Source of the DNA: an uncultured Actinomycetes bacterium
GTDB lineage: Bacteria; Actinomycetota; Thermoleophilia; Solirubrobacterales; 70-9
Length of the DNA stretch: 21,206 bases
Direction: 5' to 3'
Assembly: GCA_946482365.1 (NCBI GenBank)
Contig: CAMLQY010000031.1
Span: forward strand, 1 to 21,206
The notes under the pieces are model-generated. The model did no database searches, had not been told where the DNA came from, and worked only from the letters and a program-made list of their open reading frames with translations. A program made the translations under genes and the position numbers. Position 1 is the first letter of the stretch. Every line of letters starts with the position of its first letter. This document shows, piece after piece, positions 1,056 through 18,535 of the stretch.

Positions 1056-1131
1056 GGGATGCCGGCGCCCCTTTCCAAAACGCTCGGCAGGAGCCTCGCT
1101 GGAGTGTTTTGGAAAGGGGCGCCGGCATCCC
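1056..1131 (+). repeat. Hairpin repeat E1, 26-bp perfect stem with conserved loop
   Basis: The left arm 1056-1081 (starts GGGATGCCGGCGCCCC, ends CCAAAAC) is exactly complementary to 1106-1131. The 24-nt loop 1082-1105 reads GCTCGGCAGGAGC then CTCGCTGGAGT. GCTC/GAGT at the loop edge adds four more pairs, one of them G-U. The loop is the reverse complement of the E2 loop with one mismatch (23/24), while the outer stem sequence differs. It begins 16 nt after the stop of the secreted-protein gene and could act as terminator or 3' mRNA structure, but no T-run follows. Confidence 0.85.
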
Positions 1132-1296: not shown

Positions 1297-1377
1297 GGAG
1301 GGCCATCGGGGGCCCTCCCCAAAACACTCCAGCGAGGCTCCCGCCGAGCGTTTTGGGGAGGGCCCCCGATGGCCTCC
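1297..1377 (-). repeat. Hairpin repeat E2, same family as E1 in inverted orientation
   Basis: The left arm 1301-1325 (GGCCATCGGGGGCCCTCCCC then AAAAC) is exactly complementary to 1350-1374. Three further pairs across a single bulged G extend the stem to 1297 and 1377. The 24-nt loop 1326-1349 contains CAGCGAGGCTCCCGCCGAGC and matches the reverse complement of the E1 loop at 23 of 24 positions. Only the CCAAAAC base of the stem is shared with E1; the outer arms differ but remain self-complementary. Read along the - strand it lies 27 nt downstream of the winged-helix gene, the same placement and orientation as E1 has to its own upstream gene. Confidence 0.85.
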
Positions 1378-6705: not shown

Positions 6706-6773
6706 GGGGCAATGGGGATGGCCCCGACCGAGCCTCCCCGCTGTTGCTCGGGCGGGGCCATCCCCATTGCCCC
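6706..6773 (+). repeat. Hairpin repeat E3, 20-bp perfect stem, relative of E1/E2
   Basis: GGGGCAATGGGGATGGCCCC (6706-6725) is exactly complementary to 6754-6773. The loop holds an inner CCGAGC/GCTCGG stem around CTCCCCGCTGTT. The strand GAGCCTCCCCGCTG resembles the GAGCCTCGCTG core of the E1 loop with three added bases. Unlike E1 and E2 it lies upstream of two divergent genes, not behind a gene end. Confidence 0.7.
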
Positions 6774-9659: not shown

Positions 9660-9682
9660 GGACGGAGGGGACCCCTCCGTCC
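9660..9682. terminator. Hairpin between convergent genes
   Basis: GGACGGAGGGG directly abuts its complement in ACCCCTCCGTCC, a near-perfect palindrome filling the 26 nt between the stops of the repressor gene and the receiver gene. It is usable from both sides, has no T-run, and shares the GGACGG-GGGGACCCCT pattern with the arm of the fbiC hairpin. Confidence 0.55.
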
Positions 9683-12254: not shown

Positions 12255-14570
12255 GTGCGCCGGGTCACCTTCTCGCGGAACTACACGCTCTCCCTCTCGC
12301 GGACGTGCCAGTGCTACTGCAAGTACTGCGCCTTCGCGACGCACCAGGCGCATATCCGCTCGCCTGAAGAGGTCGAGAGCCTTCTGGACGAGGCTTTGAA
12401 ACGAAACGCCAAGGAGCTCCTAGTGCTCACGGGGGAGCGCCCTGAGGTCAACCCCGTCGTAGCTTCGAAGCTGGCGCAATGGGGCCACGACGACTTCACG
12501 TCCTACGTCGTCTGGGCCTGCGAACGAGCTTTGGAACGGGGCATGCTTCCGCACACGAACATCGGTGTCCTGGATCGCGAGGACCTGGCCCGGTTGCGAG
12601 AGGTGACCGCTTCTCAGGGCCTGATGCTGGAGTCGGTCTCAGAGCAGCTCATGGAGACCGTCCACGCGGGTTCTCCCACGAAGCATCCTGCTCAACGGCT
12701 GGCGACGATCGAAGTCGCCGGCGAGCTCAAGATCCCTTTCACGAGTGGCATCCTGGTCGGTATCGGCGAGACCGAGGAGGAGCAGGTCGCGTCCCTCGAA
12801 GCCCTCGCGGACTTGCACGGCCGCTATGGACACCTCCAAGAGATCATCCTCCAGAACTTCGTTCCTCACCCTCGCTATTACGGGGCCGAAGTGGCGGACA
12901 TCGCGGACGCTGCTTCCCGCAAGCGGTGGGGGGACGGCGGGGACCCCTCTGCTGGGGCTCCGCAGCGGGATCGTGATGGCGGTACAGAGGTTGAGCGGCT
13001 TCGCGAGTTCCCATCAGAGGGGTCCCCGCCGTCCCTTCCAGTTCCATCGTGGGCTAGCCCGGTCGGTGTGGAGGACATCAAGCGGTTGATCGGGGAGTGC
13101 AAGCGGCTGATGCCGGATGTGGGGGTGCAGGTGCCGCCGAATCTGTCGGACAGCTGGGATGAGCTGGTGGAAGCGGGAGCGACTGATCTCGGTGGGCTGT
13201 CAGCTAATGGAGACCACATTTCCCCTGAGCACGCGTTCCCGAGTCCCCACGAGGTCAGAAAGTCTCTGGCTCCCAGGGGCTATGCACTGACCGAGAGGCT
13301 GTGCGTCTACCCGCAGTACATGGACTCGGAGTGGATGGAGCAGGGGGTCCTCGACGTGATCAAGCTGAAGTACTGGAGCTTCATCCCGCGGCGGGGGTCA
13401 GGGAGGCGGTCGGAAGAGTCCCTGGACGGGAAGCTGGCTCCCGAAGCGATCGCCAAAGGGCGCGAGGGGGTCGAGCTGAGCGAGGACGAGCTGACGGCTC
13501 TCTTTGCCGAGACGCGGCCCGGGGTGATCGAGGAGATGCGGGTCGCTGCGGACGAGCTTCGGCAGGAGCTGGCGGGGGACCGGGCCACCTTTGTCGTCAA
13601 CCGGAACATCAACTTCACGAATATCTGCGTTGTGGGCTGTGCTTTCTGCGGCTTTGGGCAGGGCAAGAGGTCGCCAGATGCTTATGAGGTGTCCGAGGAC
13701 GATTTTGCGGCGCGGATCGAGGAGGCTGTTGCCTTTGGGGCGACGGAGATCTGCATGCAGGGGGGGATCCATCCCGACCTGACCCTGGAGGAGTACGGCA
13801 AGTGGCTGCGGCTGGCGAAGGAGGTGGCGCCGCAGCTGCACCTGCACGCCTACTCGCCGATGGAGGTCGACCACATGTGCGAGCGCTCGGGCAAGGGCGC
13901 GGACGAGGTCTTCGAGTATCTGATCGGGTGCGGCCTCGGCTCGACGCCGGGGACCGCGGCGGAGGTGCTCGACGACGGTGTGCGGCAGCGGATCTCGCCC
14001 AACAAGCTGCCGGCGCGGCGCTGGGTCGAGATCATCGAGGCCTCCCACCGGGCGGGCCTGCGCTCGACCTCGACCGTGATGTTCGGCCACATCGAGGAGC
14101 CGCGCGAGCTGGCCCGTCACATGCAGGTCGTCCGCGCGCTGCAGGAGCGCACCGGCGGCATCACCGAGTTCGTCCCGCTCAGCTTCATCCCCTTCAACAC
14201 GATGCTCGGCCGCACGCACGGGATCGAGGAGATCTCCGCCGCCGAGAACCTCAAGCACACCGCTGCCTTCCGCCTGGCCCTGGGCAGGACGATCCCCAAC
14301 CTGCAGGCGAGCTGGGTGAAGATGGGCCTCGAGGCTGCCACCGAGGCGCTGCGCTGGGGCGTCAACGACCTCGGCGGCACGCTGATGGAGGAGAGCATCT
14401 CCCGCATGGCGGGCTCCCAGCACGGCGTCCGGCTGGAGCCCGATCAGCTGATCGGGGCCGCCCGCGCCGCGGGGCGCGAACCGGCACAGCGGACGACGCT
14501 GTACGAGATCATCGAGACGTATGCGAGCGATGGTCCTCGAGAGGCAGCGGGAGCCCCTTCGGCCGGCTGA
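12255..14570 (+). CDS. fbiC: FO synthase FbiC (CofG-CofH fusion)
   Basis: 771 residues. The CofG half carries the radical-SAM cluster TCQCYCKYC (Cys 18, 22, 25) and runs to about residue 390. The CofH half carries NICVVGCAFCGF (Cys 458, 462, 465), MQGGIHPD and ITEFVPLSFIPFN. Family knowledge: two radical-SAM steps join 5-amino-6-ribitylaminouracil and tyrosine into FO, the F420 deazaflavin core. The remaining F420 genes lie at 15504-18535. GTG 12255 follows TAGCTT by 6 nt. Codons 226-261, in the loop between QNFVPHPRYYG...RKRW and WASPVGVEDIKRL, come from a 105-nt hairpin insert in frame. Codon use changes within the gene: up to roughly 13750 many third positions are A/T; after that they are nearly all G/C. 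The C-terminal 17 codons overlap the alcohol dehydrogenase gene. Confidence 0.92.
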   Translation: MRRVTFSRNYTLSLSRTCQCYCKYCAFATHQAHIRSPEEVESLLDEALKRNAKELLVLTGERPEVNPVVASKLAQWGHDDFTSYVVWACERALERGMLPHTNIGVLDREDLARLREVTASQGLMLESVSEQLMETVHAGSPTKHPAQRLATIEVAGELKIPFTSGILVGIGETEEEQVASLEALADLHGRYGHLQEIILQNFVPHPRYYGAEVADIADAASRKRWGDGGDPSAGAPQRDRDGGTEVERLREFPSEGSPPSLPVPSWASPVGVEDIKRLIGECKRLMPDVGVQVPPNLSDSWDELVEAGATDLGGLSANGDHISPEHAFPSPHEVRKSLAPRGYALTERLCVYPQYMDSEWMEQGVLDVIKLKYWSFIPRRGSGRRSEESLDGKLAPEAIAKGREGVELSEDELTALFAETRPGVIEEMRVAADELRQELAGDRATFVVNRNINFTNICVVGCAFCGFGQGKRSPDAYEVSEDDFAARIEEAVAFGATEICMQGGIHPDLTLEEYGKWLRLAKEVAPQLHLHAYSPMEVDHMCERSGKGADEVFEYLIGCGLGSTPGTAAEVLDDGVRQRISPNKLPARRWVEIIEASHRAGLRSTSTVMFGHIEEPRELARHMQVVRALQERTGGITEFVPLSFIPFNTMLGRTHGIEEISAAENLKHTAAFRLALGRTIPNLQASWVKMGLEAATEALRWGVNDLGGTLMEESISRMAGSQHGVRLEPDQLIGAARAAGREPAQRTTLYEIIETYASDGPREAAGAPSAG
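12931..13035 (+). repeat. In-frame hairpin insert within fbiC
   Basis: The 21-nt left arm 12931-12951 (begins GGGACGGCGGGGACCCCT) is exactly complementary to 13015-13035. The 63-nt apex can add imperfect TGGG/CCCA and CTC/GAG pairs. It totals 105 nt, 35 codons, so the frame is kept. The encoded segment is Gly/Pro/Ser/Arg-rich and lies in a surface loop of the CofG half. The arm shares the GGACGG-GGGGACCCC pattern with the 9660-9682 hairpin. Confidence 0.75.
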
Positions 14571-15507
14571 GCTTCCCGAGCCCTCGGCCGGTCCCGGCCA
14601 GGTGCTCGTCTCCGTCGCCACGTGCGGTGTCTGTCGCACCGACTTGCACATCGCCGATGGCGACCTGACCGAGCCGAAGTTGCCCTTGGTCCCCGGCCAC
14701 CAGATCGTCGGCACGGTGGCCGAGGCCGGAGAGGGGGCGGAGCGCTTCGCGGTCGGGGACCGGGTCGGAGTGCCCTGGCTGGGCTGGACATGCGGCGAGT
14801 GCCGCTACTGCGCGAGCGGGCGCGAGAACCTCTGCGACCGCGCTCGCTTCACCGGCTACAACGTCGACGGCGGCTACGCCGAGCGGGCGGTGGCCGACGA
14901 GCGCTTCTGCTTCCCGATCCCCGGGGGCTACCCGGACGAGCAGGCGGCGCCGCTGCTCTGCGCCGGGTTGATCGGCTACCGCGCGCTGCGCCTCCTCGGC
15001 GACGCCGAGCGGGTCGGCTTCTACGGCTTCGGCGCCTCGGCCCACATCCTCTGCCAGGTCGCCGCGCACCAGGGCCGGCGGGTGTTCGCCTTCACCCGCC
15101 CCGGGGACGAGGAGGGGCAGGCGTTCGCGCGCGAGCTGGGTGCCGAGTGGGCGGGGCCCTCGGACGAGGCGCCGCCGGAGGAGATCGACGGCGCGATCGT
15201 CTTCGCCCCGGTCGGCGTCTTGATGACGACGGCTCTGCGGGCCAGCGCCAAGGGCGCCCGGATCCTCAGCGCCGGCATCCACATGAGCGACGTCCCGAGC
15301 TTCCCCTACGAGCAGCTCTGGGGCGAGCGCACGCTCGGCTCGGTCGCCAACCTGACCAGGCGGGACGGCGAGGAGTTCCTGGCCCTGGCGCCCCAGGTGC
15401 CGGTGCGCACCGAGGTCGAGGTATACCCGCTGCATGCTGCGAACGAGGCGCTCGACGCGATCCGCGACGGCAGCCTCCGCGGCGCTGCGGTGCTGAAGAT
15501 CGACTAA
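14521..15507 (+). CDS. Zinc-dependent alcohol dehydrogenase (MDR family)
   Basis: 328 residues from ATG 14521 (MRAMVLERQREPLRPAEL), starting 50 nt inside fbiC, so probably cotranscribed. GroES-like catalytic domain: Cys 35 (ATCGVCRTDLH), His 60 (VPGHQIVG) and Cys 147 as catalytic zinc ligands. Structural zinc: Cys 91, 94, 97 and 105 (TCGECRYCASGRENLC). The nucleotide loop YGFGASAH lies near 168-175. It matches the AdhA-type bacterial alcohol dehydrogenases that use NAD(P)H; the substrate cannot be told. Alternative start ATG 14530 would trim three residues. Its TAA overlaps the stop of the convergent cofE gene. A link to F420 metabolism is suggested by position only. Confidence 0.85.
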   Translation: MRAMVLERQREPLRPAELPEPSAGPGQVLVSVATCGVCRTDLHIADGDLTEPKLPLVPGHQIVGTVAEAGEGAERFAVGDRVGVPWLGWTCGECRYCASGRENLCDRARFTGYNVDGGYAERAVADERFCFPIPGGYPDEQAAPLLCAGLIGYRALRLLGDAERVGFYGFGASAHILCQVAAHQGRRVFAFTRPGDEEGQAFARELGAEWAGPSDEAPPEEIDGAIVFAPVGVLMTTALRASAKGARILSAGIHMSDVPSFPYEQLWGERTLGSVANLTRRDGEEFLALAPQVPVRTEVEVYPLHAANEALDAIRDGSLRGAAVLKID

Positions 15508-16250
15508 CGGAAGAGGTCTTCGTCCCGTGGTCGGCGTATCGCAGCGGCTCCCGGCCCGTCGTCTGTTGTCACGAAGCGATTGAGGCCGCGGACGATGACA
15601 GCGGGGATGCGGCTGTCCTTGCTGCGGGCGAGGTCAGCGGCGGCTGCCGCCTCGTCGGCGACGGCGATCACGGTTGCTTCGAGCTTTTGGCCATGAGCGT
15701 CTTGCCGATTGCGCCAGTCGTCGAGTGGGACAAGGCCGGCGCAGCCGATCGCCACCTCGGCCTGGCCGAGGCGCCAGGGGCGGCCAAAACTGTCGGCGAT
15801 CACGATGCCGACGGTGGAGAGGATTTCGGCGCGGATGCGGCGGGCGGAGGCGTCGGGGTCCTCGGGCAGGAGGCAGACGGTGCCGTCGTCCGGCAGGTTC
15901 GAGCTGTCGATGCCGGCGTTGGCGCAGACGAATCCGTGATGCGTCTCCGTGATCAGGACGCCGCGCTCGGCGCGGAGGACGTCTTTGCTCTCGGCGAGGA
16001 CCAGCTCGACCAGGGCCGGGTCCTTGCCGAGCTCCCCGGCGAGCCTGCGCGCGCCCTCGCCGGGCGCAACGGAACCGAGCCGCCGCACCCGGCCCTCCGC
16101 CTTGGAGACGGCCTTCTGCGCGATCACGAGGACGTCGCCGTCCTCGATCTCGGCGGCTGCGGCGACCAGCTCGCCGAGGTTCGTCCCCGCCTCGATCTCG
16201 GGCAGGCCGGGCACCGGCAGCACGCGCAGCTCGCCGCCCACGTCGCTCAT
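15504..16250 (-). CDS. cofE: Coenzyme F420-0:L-glutamate ligase (CofE)
   Basis: 248 residues from ATG 16250. Recognisable blocks: VLPVPGLPEIEAGTNLGELV (10-29), GDVLVIAQKAVSKAEGRV (38-55), RGVLITETHHGFVCANAGID (95-114) with SSNLP, and VIADSFGRPWRLGQAEVAIG. These match the GTP-dependent ligase that adds glutamates to F420-0. The frame ends after RPRDEDLFR, so the nitroreductase-like C-terminal domain of mycobacterial FbiB is absent and the protein is the short CofE form. The gene overlaps cofC by four bases (ATGA) and is last in the npdG-cofD-cofC-cofE operon. Its TAG stop overlaps the TAA of the convergent alcohol dehydrogenase. A frame reaching up to 16595 is noncoding extension. Confidence 0.9.
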   Translation of the reverse strand: MSDVGGELRVLPVPGLPEIEAGTNLGELVAAAAEIEDGDVLVIAQKAVSKAEGRVRRLGSVAPGEGARRLAGELGKDPALVELVLAESKDVLRAERGVLITETHHGFVCANAGIDSSNLPDDGTVCLLPEDPDASARRIRAEILSTVGIVIADSFGRPWRLGQAEVAIGCAGLVPLDDWRNRQDAHGQKLEATVIAVADEAAAAADLARSKDSRIPAVIVRGLNRFVTTDDGPGAAAIRRPRDEDLFR

Positions 16251-16888
16251 ATGCCGAGCACCCTGGCCGTTCGCCTGGCGCGCCGGCGATCCCTCTCCAG
16301 CTCCATGGTCAGGGCGACGACGTCGGCCGGCGTGTCCAGGTCCAGCGCCAGCGACGCCAGCTCCTCGACGCCGTAGGGCACCCCGGCCTCGCGAGCAGCC
16401 GCGACGTGACGGGCGCAGCTGTCCTCGCCGAAGGACGGCTCGATCGCGTCGGGCGGGGCGAGCGCGAGCGCGTTCGTCCCGCTGCCGTGCCGGTCGGGGA
16501 CGACGGTCACGAATCGCTCGGGCAGGCCGGTCAGCAGCCGTTCGAGCTCGCGGGAGTCGAGCAGGGGGCAGTCGATGGGGAGCAGGACGGCGCAATCGGC
16601 GCCGAGCTCGCGGGCGCGGGCGGTCCCGGCGAGGGCGGCGCCGGAGTGGCCGCCCTCGTCCGGGTCGGCAACCAGCTCGCAGCCCCTCTCGCCGGCCAGC
16701 TCGATCGCACGCGGCTCGCCGGTGACGACCACCGTCTGCTCGATCGACCGTGTCGCGCCGATCGCCTCCAGCACGTCCTCCAGCATCGCTGCCGCCAGCT
16801 CGGCGCGGTGCGTTGCGCCCATGCCTGGGGCAAGCCGTTGCTTGGCTGCGCCGAAGCGCTTGACCGGCAGGACGGCGATCGCCTTCAA
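16247..16888 (-). CDS. cofC: 2-phospho-L-lactate (or phosphoenolpyruvate) guanylyltransferase CofC/FbiD
   Basis: 213 residues. AVLPVKRFGAAKQRLAPGM (5-23) is the nucleotide-binding N-terminus of this nucleotidyltransferase group; ADPDEGGHSGAALAGT (74-89), AVLLPIDCPLL (99-109) and DRHGSGTNALAL (131-142) follow. Role: transfers GMP to 2-phospholactate or, in mycobacteria, phosphoenolpyruvate, giving the donor for CofD; cytosolic. The start TTG 16888 is supported only by family length and the conserved MKAIAVLPVKR start; no clear ribosome site is seen in the 18-nt gap after cofD. Overlap ATGA with cofE. Which three-carbon substrate is used cannot be read from this sequence. Confidence 0.88.
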   Translation of the reverse strand: MKAIAVLPVKRFGAAKQRLAPGMGATHRAELAAAMLEDVLEAIGATRSIEQTVVVTGEPRAIELAGERGCELVADPDEGGHSGAALAGTARARELGADCAVLLPIDCPLLDSRELERLLTGLPERFVTVVPDRHGSGTNALALAPPDAIEPSFGEDSCARHVAAAREAGVPYGVEELASLALDLDTPADVVALTMELERDRRRARRTARVLGI

Positions 16889-16906
16889 GCTGCGGGGGAG
16901 GGGGGT

Positions 16907-17836
16907 TCAGTCACCTTCGAGGAGGCTACTGGCGTAGTCGAGCACGATACGGGCGAGGCGCAGCCTTCCCGCCGCGCCCTCCATCAGGGTCGGCACCGCG
17001 AGCGTGGGGATCTCCTCCGGCGGCGGGTCGGGGTCGCCCTCGTCGACGACCATCGCGTCGATCAGCCCCGCGTACAGGGAGGCGACGCCGGCCGCGGTCG
17101 ACGGCCGGCCGAGCGCCTGCATGAAGCGCTCCGTCGGCCCCTTGACCACCTGGCCGGCGACGAAGGGGCTGACCGCGACGACGGGAGCGGTGGAGGCGGC
17201 GATCGCCTCGGTCATCCCCGGGATCGCGAGGATCGGGCCGATGCTGATCACCGGGTTGGAGGGGCCGATCACGATCGCCTCGGCCCAGCGCAGCGCCTCC
17301 AGCACCTCGGCGCTCGGCTCGGCGGTCTCGACCCCGTCCAGCTCGACGCCCTGGACCTCTGGCTCGCCGCGGTCGACGATCAGGTACTCCTGCAGGGCGC
17401 GGCTGCCGCCGGCGGTCAGCACCCTGGTCCGCACCGGCGCCTCGCACATCGGCAGAACCCGCGCCTCGACCCCGAGCGCACGGCCGATCTGCGCCTGGGC
17501 GTCGGTGAGCCGCCCGCCCTCCTCGAGGAACTGGCGGCGGTAGAGGCAGGCGGCGAGGTCGCGGTCGGAGAGGCCGAACCAGCTCGGCGCACCCAGCTTC
17601 GTCAGCCGGTCGAAGACGGTGAAGGTGTCGTCGCGCAGGCCCCAGCCGCGCTCCTCGTCGATCTCTCCGCTGAGCCAGTAGGTGACGAGGTCGGGGTCGG
17701 GGGAGACGTGGACGCCGAGCGTCTCGACGTCGTCGGCGGTGTTGGCGATCACCGCTAGGTCGGAGCCGATCTCCTCCTGCATCCCGGCGGCGAGCTTGGC
17801 GCCCCCGGTGCCGCCCGCCAGCAGCGCGACCCGCAT
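16907..17836 (-). CDS. cofD: 2-phospho-L-lactate transferase CofD/FbiA
   Basis: 309 residues from ATG 17836. The N-terminus VALLAGGTGGAKLAAGM (3-19) is the LPPG/FO-binding glycine loop, followed by IANTADDVETLGVHVSPDPD and VTYWLSGEIDEERGWGLRDD. Next come WFGLSDRDLA, AIVIGPSNPVISIGPILAIP, and VVAVSPFVAGQVVKGPTERF, all typical of the family. Role: joins FO to the phospholactyl or enolpyruvyl group to give F420-0 or dehydro-F420-0. It starts 6 nt after the npdG stop and ends 18 nt before cofC, consistent with one transcript. Length matches the family. Confidence 0.92.
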   Translation of the reverse strand: MRVALLAGGTGGAKLAAGMQEEIGSDLAVIANTADDVETLGVHVSPDPDLVTYWLSGEIDEERGWGLRDDTFTVFDRLTKLGAPSWFGLSDRDLAACLYRRQFLEEGGRLTDAQAQIGRALGVEARVLPMCEAPVRTRVLTAGGSRALQEYLIVDRGEPEVQGVELDGVETAEPSAEVLEALRWAEAIVIGPSNPVISIGPILAIPGMTEAIAASTAPVVAVSPFVAGQVVKGPTERFMQALGRPSTAAGVASLYAGLIDAMVVDEGDPDPPPEEIPTLAVPTLMEGAAGRLRLARIVLDYASSLLEGD

Positions 17837-17842
17837 GGATGG

Positions 17843-18535
17843 CTACCCCCAGTGGTCGCCGTCGGGGAGGCCGGTCAGCTGGATCCCCGCGTGGGCCTTG
17901 TAGCGGACGTTGACCGAGATCAGCAGCGGCGTCAGCTGCTCGACGATCCGCGCCATCTCCAGCGGCCCGGCGTTGACGGCCCGCAGTCCCGGGATCAGCT
18001 CGATCAGGCGCGCGACCCGGGCCTTGTCGGCCTTGCGGTCGCCGCAGACGAGTATGTCCTCACCCAGCTCGGCCTCTGCGTCGGCCAGCGTCGGGGCGCC
18101 GATCGTGTGCAGGGCGGCGACCACGGTGACGCCGTCGGGGACCATCTCCTGGGCCTGCTGGGCGGCGCTTCCCTGCCAGACGCCGAGCGAGCGCGTCGCC
18201 TTGCCGCTGACCGCGGCGGCGAGCGGGACCGTGCAGTCGACCAGGATCTGCCCGGGCTGCAGCGCCTCGCGCAGGTTGTTGAGGTTCTCGGACTGGTTGC
18301 GGAAGGGGACGGTGAGGAAGACGATCTCGGCGCGCTTCACGGCCTCCTCGTTGAGCAGGCCCTCGACCTCGGCGCCCGGCACCTTCTCGCGCAGCTTCGC
18401 GGCTGCCTCCCCGGCCCGCTCGGCCGATCGCGAGCCGATCGCGATCGGGGCGCCTGCCTGGGCCCAGCGCAGGGCGAGGCCGGCGCCGAGCGCTCCGGTG
18501 CCGCCGACGATCGGGATGGTGGGAAGGTCCGCCAC
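17843..18535 (-). CDS. npdG: F420H2:NADP+ oxidoreductase (NpdG/Fno-like)
   Basis: 230 residues from GTG 18535. TIPIVGGTGALGAGLALRWA (6-25) is the NADP-binding loop, with SRSAERA beyond the second strand for the phosphate. KRAEIVFLTVPFRNQ, GQILVDCTVPL and PLEMARIVEQLTPLLISVN are typical of the F420-dependent NADP reductase family. Role: hydride exchange between F420H2 and NADP+, cytosolic. It is first in the F420 operon, so the cofactor maker and the main user are co-expressed. GTG 18535 follows a TAGACT box by 9 nt, shared head-to-head with the SDR gene promoter. Family members end near GDHWG as here. Confidence 0.9.
   Translation of the reverse strand: MADLPTIPIVGGTGALGAGLALRWAQAGAPIAIGSRSAERAGEAAAKLREKVPGAEVEGLLNEEAVKRAEIVFLTVPFRNQSENLNNLREALQPGQILVDCTVPLAAAVSGKATRSLGVWQGSAAQQAQEMVPDGVTVVAALHTIGAPTLADAEAELGEDILVCGDRKADKARVARLIELIPGLRAVNAGPLEMARIVEQLTPLLISVNVRYKAHAGIQLTGLPDGDHWG

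Follow-up and report, generated by a model that had tools for sequence, protein, structure and literature searches.

An in-frame palindromic insert in fbiC of an uncultured Solirubrobacterales bacterium and its likeness to dispersed elements whose arms change together

The fbiC gene of an uncultured Solirubrobacterales bacterium carries a 105-nt palindrome in the half that encodes CofG. This raises the question of whether the segment is an insertion or an ordinary loop of the protein whose codons happen to be complementary and, if it is an insertion, of what keeps its two arms paired while they lie in coding DNA. The locus was analysed in a window of 21,206 nt (the whole stretch of DNA under study, contig CAMLQY010000031.1) and compared with the genomes of relatives. 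The answer that we favour, with a probability of about two in three, is that the segment is a selfish-type palindromic element in a tolerant loop of FbiC, that it is part of a superfamily restricted to this clade, and that DNA-level copying preserves the complementarity of its arms. The features of the window are collected in Table 1.

Table 1. Palindromes and related features of the window (R1 is the covariance model described in the text)
Feature	Positions	Strand	Remarks
fbiC, FO synthase (fused CofG and CofH halves)	12255..14570	+	host gene; 771-aa ORF
palindromic insert, 105 nt, in frame	12931..13035	.	absent or different in relatives
left arm of the insert, encodes about GDGGDPSAG	12931..12956	+	
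apex/core of the fbiC insert	12957..13009	+	same peptide in fbiC homologs at the equivalent place
right arm of the insert, encodes about PSEGSPPS	13010..13035	+	reverse complement of the left arm except for one base
second palindrome, intergenic, core CTCCCCGCTGTT, type-B relative	6706..6773	.	R1 57.1 bits, E 8.9e-9, matched over 6707-6772
intergenic palindrome, similarly built, perfect arms of 26 nt	1056..1131	.	
palindrome of similar build, 25-nt perfect arms	1301..1374	.	weak R1 match, 30.5 bits, E 0.0051
23-nt palindrome, looks like coreless arms	9660..9682	.	directly after the stop of an MntR-like gene
cofE stretch without palindrome	15786..15840	-	G036 ortholog has an in-frame one, L189 4874-4938

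Both the CofG and the CofH models of NCBIfam match the host ORF above their own cut-offs, and cofE, cofC, cofD and npdG lie nearby on the other strand (15504-18535). The arms of the insert, of 26 nt each, are 96% complementary with one mismatch and lie 53 nt apart. The first-pass annotation had described perfect 21-bp arms with a 63-nt apex, which is the same palindrome cut at the single mismatch, and its claim that the reading frame is kept was borne out, since 21+63+21 gives 105 nt, a multiple of three, in the frame of the 771-aa ORF. Its statement that exactly 35 codons are added is correct for the palindrome itself and too high for the net gain: measured between the RW and W(A) anchors, the window has 123 nt and the close palindrome-free relatives L112, L113 and L114 have 45-48 nt, a gain of 75-78 nt or 25-26 codons. 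The palindrome is real and beyond chance. Its inverted-repeat score of 23 exceeded those of all 100 dinucleotide shuffles (largest 11), no inverted repeat scoring at least 15 appeared in five random windows generated with the first-order Markov statistics of the window, and RNA folding of the insert gave z = -5.6, with none of 200 shuffles as low. An AlphaFold2 model of the window's FbiC (26-row alignment, mean pLDDT 80.6, pTM 0.56), a check that the first-pass annotation had proposed, gives residues 223-260 as the longest stretch with a pLDDT below 50; it is flanked in the CofG half by helices 211-225 and 272-285. As modelled, the insert is a flexible loop.

The corresponding stretch is variable in relatives. 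Across 120 FbiC sequences, namely that of the window together with P0003-P0121 (P0002 has the same sequence as the window), the part between ..RW and ..WASPV is variable both in length and in sequence, and interiors of several unrelated kinds are enclosed by similar ends. Nine of 45 distinct family-level sites, the window included, had a score of at least 15, each above its own 100 shuffles; two were borderline at a score of 11, which 1 of 100 shuffles attained in each case, one (L092) was masked, and 33 scored 10 or less. The length was a multiple of three at all 45 sites. The nine strong palindromes differ in arms and apex, and some are mutually related (L082/L089 and L083/L091). Among the palindrome-free genomes, G041, G042 and G037 have just 45-48 nt at this place. 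A second set of 45 distinct sites from a GTDB search, which partly overlaps the first, contained four with a score of at least 15, and those that scored below 11 had a median length of 45 nt (range 30-147). An equally long and non-palindromic loop in all relatives, the simple alternative named in the first-pass annotation, is therefore not what the alignment revealed. Since nine of the 45 family-level sites are palindromic and differ from one another, 33 have no strong palindrome and close relatives have only 45-48 nt, the comparison supports an insertion; elements are present or absent at this site, and different ones replace each other there. Two further observations concern the same gene. 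In eight sequences (P0027, P0029, P0046, P0049, P0057, P0099, P0113 and P0117) an extra insert follows the first in the same loop, with a peptide like PSPGASQ.VAPGEG, and G007 has two fbiC copies on one contig, ∼20 kb apart (C6:3706-5949 and C6:24093-26330).

The residues encoded by the two arms change together. In 53 of the 120 FbiC sequences the site follows the pattern RWGxyGDPS...REFP...EGSPuv, where, by complementarity, the first two bases of the codon for u follow from y, and those for v from x. For 104 of the 106 residue pairs in these sequences the fit to complementarity holds, against 41.2 with shuffled right halves (sd 4.5, largest 57), and among the 18 distinct haplotypes 35 of 36 pairs fit, against 11.6 when shuffled. 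Examples are DD with SS, AA with AA, AG with PA, and GD with SP. The rule extends to other families of insert found there: 18 of the 45 sequences that lack REFP could be placed (27 could not), and 32 of their 36 pairs fit, with P0066, which looks like a misplaced register, counted as a failure. The 22 leftover homologs were examined afterwards in a looser register in which 20 were placed and 2 were not; there 27 of 40 pairs fit, against 10.0 after shuffling (largest 19), the weaker rule being partly a matter of shifted and double inserts. When the insert was left out of tree building, both residues of a pair changed on 36 occasions, and each such pair was complementary afterwards; one residue alone changed on 4. 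Shuffled labels gave 10.5 and 63.0. The parsimony ancestors were limited to observed residue pairs, which favours two-sided changes, and the shuffled control was equally limited. An ordinary variable low-complexity loop that became palindromic by chance in a G+C-rich gene would agree with the variable length of the fbiC loop in relatives generally. Shuffles never reach the score of the site, however, and together with this complementarity rule they refute such a reading.

The window holds further palindromes. The gene to the left of the second palindrome (6706-6773) has orthologs in L017, L134, L001 and L184, the orthology reaching as far as the insertion point. At the matching place L017 (G003) has a related element, L134 (G036) has one of another type, and L001 and L184 have none; the right flank gave no blastn match, and the left flank, together with a short motif judged by eye, is the basis for assigning them to the same site. 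The palindromes at 1056-1131 and 1301-1374 form a mirrored pair ∼170 nt apart, with inner arm ends that look alike and cores that appear oppositely oriented by eye. The recurrence of the fbiC arm at 9660-9682, pointed out in the first-pass annotation, is present with 1 and 2 mismatches; this short palindrome, at most a candidate member, scores only 18.4 bits against R1 (E 2.1). Within the window, the arm has 6 matches at up to 3 mismatches against 1.93 expected, and 1 of 100 shuffles reaches 6.

Like elements are dispersed in the genomes of relatives. Long-armed inverted repeats in ∼0.81 Mb of G036, and in portions of other genomes, fall into types with recurring cores. One core has 7 copies in G036, six of them identical over a 22-nt probe and one with 1 mismatch; it is absent from G001, G044 and G004 at up to 3 mismatches. 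Outside the core the arms of these copies differ, except in two copies that lie 5.6 kb apart, one of which is the fbiC insert of that genome. For a second type a covariance model, R1, was built on 13 copies. At the family level it matched 14 of 50 genomes, the richest having 63, 38 and 30 matches; it further matched the same 14 among 232 genomes of the order, and G036 alone among 396 genomes drawn evenly from the larger set of the phylum (E up to 1e-5). In these searches only the best candidates per genome were scored (104 for the family, 22 for the order and 13 for the phylum, under stricter filters), so that the counts may be low and weak copies may be missed. Against R1 the fbiC insert scores weakly (30.8 bits, E 0.0045). 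As a DNA query it gave 7 short partial matches in 6 of the 50 family genomes, and no second full-length DNA copy of its core was found among them. We infer that the window's copy belongs to the dispersed superfamily from its arm build, the weak R1 scores and the common insertion site, since its core was not found again. Most of the genomes compared consist of many contigs, and assembling palindromes is difficult, yet many independent assemblies agree.

By a crude gene caller, most of the 91 type-B copies collected (56) lie between genes, 19 are inside genes, 9 are weakly inside, and 7 overlap a gene in part. The intergenic ones have neighbours in every relative orientation, and those inside genes occur on either strand. 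Type-B copies are 64-75 nt long (90 copies). Their open frames number 3.98 of 6 against 3.82 after shuffling, so that selection for open frames is not clearly indicated, and viral contigs gave no exact match to the type-B core pattern. In-frame insertion is seen in unrelated genes whose orthologs have no insert, namely fbiC and the cofE gene of G036 (L189 4563-5366); cofE is a second F420 gene with an in-frame palindrome in a genome whose fbiC also carries one, and six orthologs compared, the window's included, have no palindrome there. Several patterns were recorded alongside. At least 10 times, type-B copies stand in close pairs, minus then plus, ∼80-770 nt from start to start, among them pairs in G004, G035 and G041 (L255 4163/4605, L293 1004/1210 and L177 14996/15389). 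Palindromes in predicted genes occupy matching positions in G036 and G001 with differing arms (L132 17452-17512 and 18899-18957; L187 1713-1765 and 3211-3263), and three of these four have an apex like CAC.TTGCARGTA or CCACCTGCAAGTA. Other palindromes lie within two predicted MMPL-type transporter genes (L143 13098-15218 and L147 10202-12568).

The size, dispersal and palindromic form of these elements would also suit a known class of small repeat, either REP sequences moved by a Y1/RAYT transposase or MITEs that duplicate their target site. Y1 transposase (PF01797) was detected in 3 of the 50 family genomes, which are drafts, and all three are without R1 matches. A search for direct repeats of 3-9 nt at the ends of 90 copies returned one, of 4 nt, about as many as expected, and thus no target-site duplication. 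Such an assignment is very improbable. An inverted duplication of the target flank, in which one arm would be old and the other new, was considered because the arms are copy-specific. It was dropped: in the two cases with empty orthologs that were inspected (cofE of G036 and the intergenic site at L134), neither arm was seen by eye in the empty sites.

In the dispersed copies, as at the fbiC site, the arms change in concert. At 16 outer arm pairs in each of the 91 type-B copies, which were chosen with a model that rewards pairing, 1415 of 1456 pairs are Watson-Crick, 18 are G-U, 13 are A-C and 10 are other. The set consists of 76 of 83 matches (6 duplicates and 1 incomplete copy were dropped) and 15 of 47 from another match set, from which reverse-strand repeats, a duplicate and weaker matches were left out. 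In a control that used the core only and gave no reward for pairing (1.34 Mb of contiguous loci), 10 copies were found, and 163 of their 180 flanking pairs are Watson-Crick; the remainder comprises 3 G-U, 4 A-C and 10 other pairs, and one out-of-register copy accounts for 13 of these 17. Between copies of one genome the mean identity is 0.87-0.89 in the core and 0.54-0.55 in the arms (33 G004 copies and 15 G044 copies), and the alignment of 13 copies has two-sided changes at 17 of 21 outer pairs and a one-sided change to another standard pair at none. Orthologous copies allow changes to be counted in place: 22 of 26 pairs have an arm identity of at least 0.55 and differ by 86 two-sided versus 11 one-sided changes, and with the four less alike pairs the counts are 111 and 20; the 26 pairs are non-independent, and the group L271/L260 rests on flank matches of ∼60 nt. 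Some decayed type-B copies exist. Between L223 (G042) and L277 (G044), the one clear ortholog pair of this kind, the core is inverted within flanks that are 91-92% identical, and the site is empty in G036.

Perfect arms might also result if they were not maintained in place and whole elements with new perfect arms replaced older ones at a few hot spots. The fbiC site and one intergenic site do each carry differing types of element, the arms differ among copies within one genome, and whole-element replacement surely also happens. As the main explanation we hold it to be rather improbable, against which stand the orthologs with clearly homologous arms and core, which change mostly by two-sided substitutions at single positions (e.g., L280/L263), and the FbiC homologs with a common interior peptide, which change their arm residues in step. 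Selection by the host on an RNA (or DNA) hairpin, with the element domesticated as a structured signal and an mRNA hairpin in fbiC, would account for the better conserved core, the strong covariation of the arms and the very stable hairpin. On this account, however, G-U pairs should be tolerated in RNA, and they are about as rare as A-C pairs; the copies are found in genes on either strand and in intergenic stretches whose flanking genes have every relative orientation, the core is flipped between the orthologs L223 and L277, and the window has no Rfam match at the gathering threshold. The similar rarity of G-U and A-C pairs, the in-gene copies on either strand and the inverted ortholog core together favour copying at the DNA level over selection on RNA, and we regard the hairpin reading as unlikely.

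Our preferred model, a selfish-type element whose arms are kept complementary by DNA-level copying, can be put as follows. One of a superfamily of palindromes of ∼60-130 nt, restricted to the clade, would have arrived in fbiC by a transposition-like copying process and settled in frame in a loop that tolerates extra residues, where it would be translated as a passenger. One arm would then be copied from the other by replicative template switching, or quasipalindrome correction, so that a mutation in one arm would be either reverted or written into the other. The arms would drift as a unit, and the encoded protein would change at two distant residues at once. Two features of template switching are seen here: homogenised arms with two-sided changes, in the copies and at the fbiC site, and inversion of the spacer, in L223/L277. 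The spacers are ∼12-70 nt long and the fbiC apex is 53 nt, and template switching favours short spacers according to the excerpted text of PMC8604942. A further reading goes beyond this model: the elements could form a mobile class with a fixed core, whose arms are rewritten by fold-back copying that is perhaps tied to the spread of the element. Each copy would then be given its own perfect arms, renewed in place, and distant residues in coding copies would be coupled by DNA base pairing without structural contact. We offer it as speculative, with the odds clearly against it.

The first-pass annotation had likened the insert to the palindromic elements of Rickettsia (RPE), and the comparison holds as an analogy: by the description of RPE, the fbiC insert works in the same way. 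The excerpted accounts describe RPE as palindromic, 105-146 bp long, and located both between genes and, with the frame kept, within protein genes; one of their products was tested and had retained its activity (PMC2229807, PMC6649704). The insert of the window, with 105 nt, falls in that range, type B is shorter (64-75 nt), and in-frame insertion in genes whose orthologs have no insert is common to both (fbiC and cofE here). Multi-copy dispersal like that of RPE is seen in the relatives' genomes; the core of the window's copy was not found again in the 50 family genomes. RPE occur in another clade and are reported, in the excerpts of PMC6649704, to lose the identity of their repeats over time, whereas here the core is constant and the arms are copy-specific yet complementary, and covary. 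In-frame palindromic elements being already known in Rickettsia, our results would add an uncultured actinobacterial clade, and F420 genes as hosts, to their known range; the open-licence literature, in the excerpts covered, holds no account of such elements in Solirubrobacterales, nor of an fbiC insert.

Other systems share single traits with these elements. Palindromic repeats of Wolbachia are named in the title of a cited work. REP with RAYT and bacterial MITEs are, in the excerpts of PMC3733652 and PMC2229807, likewise small, non-autonomous, dispersed and hairpin-forming; in contrast to them, the R1 carriers are without Y1 transposase, and the 90 copies are without target-site duplication. 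The mitochondria of Nematomorpha have perfect inverted repeats of up to 284 bp inside coding genes, which are thought to be actively maintained (excerpted text of PMC6649704); these are animal mitochondria, and the excerpt describes no dispersed family with a constant core. Whether perfect stems survive mutation by selection or by template switching is an old question, which the residue coupling in fbiC makes directly testable. The coupling is also a warning that coevolution signals in protein alignments can stem from DNA palindromes rather than from contacts. In yeast genes, template switching between inverted repeats homogenises arms and inverts spacers (excerpts of PMC8604942). Template switching can change several residues of a protein at once (excerpts of PMC8604942 and PMC8794818), and it has been proposed to maintain stems (excerpts of PMC8794818). 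The events in yeast are mutations in existing repeats, with inversion spacers of 2-5 bp in the excerpted text of PMC8604942. Compared with the yeast cases, the process proposed here would recur across a whole clade and work on a mobile-type element whose apex is longer. The residues that base complementarity couples at a single orthologous site would then preserve, in natural coding DNA, a record of one arm being copied from the other.
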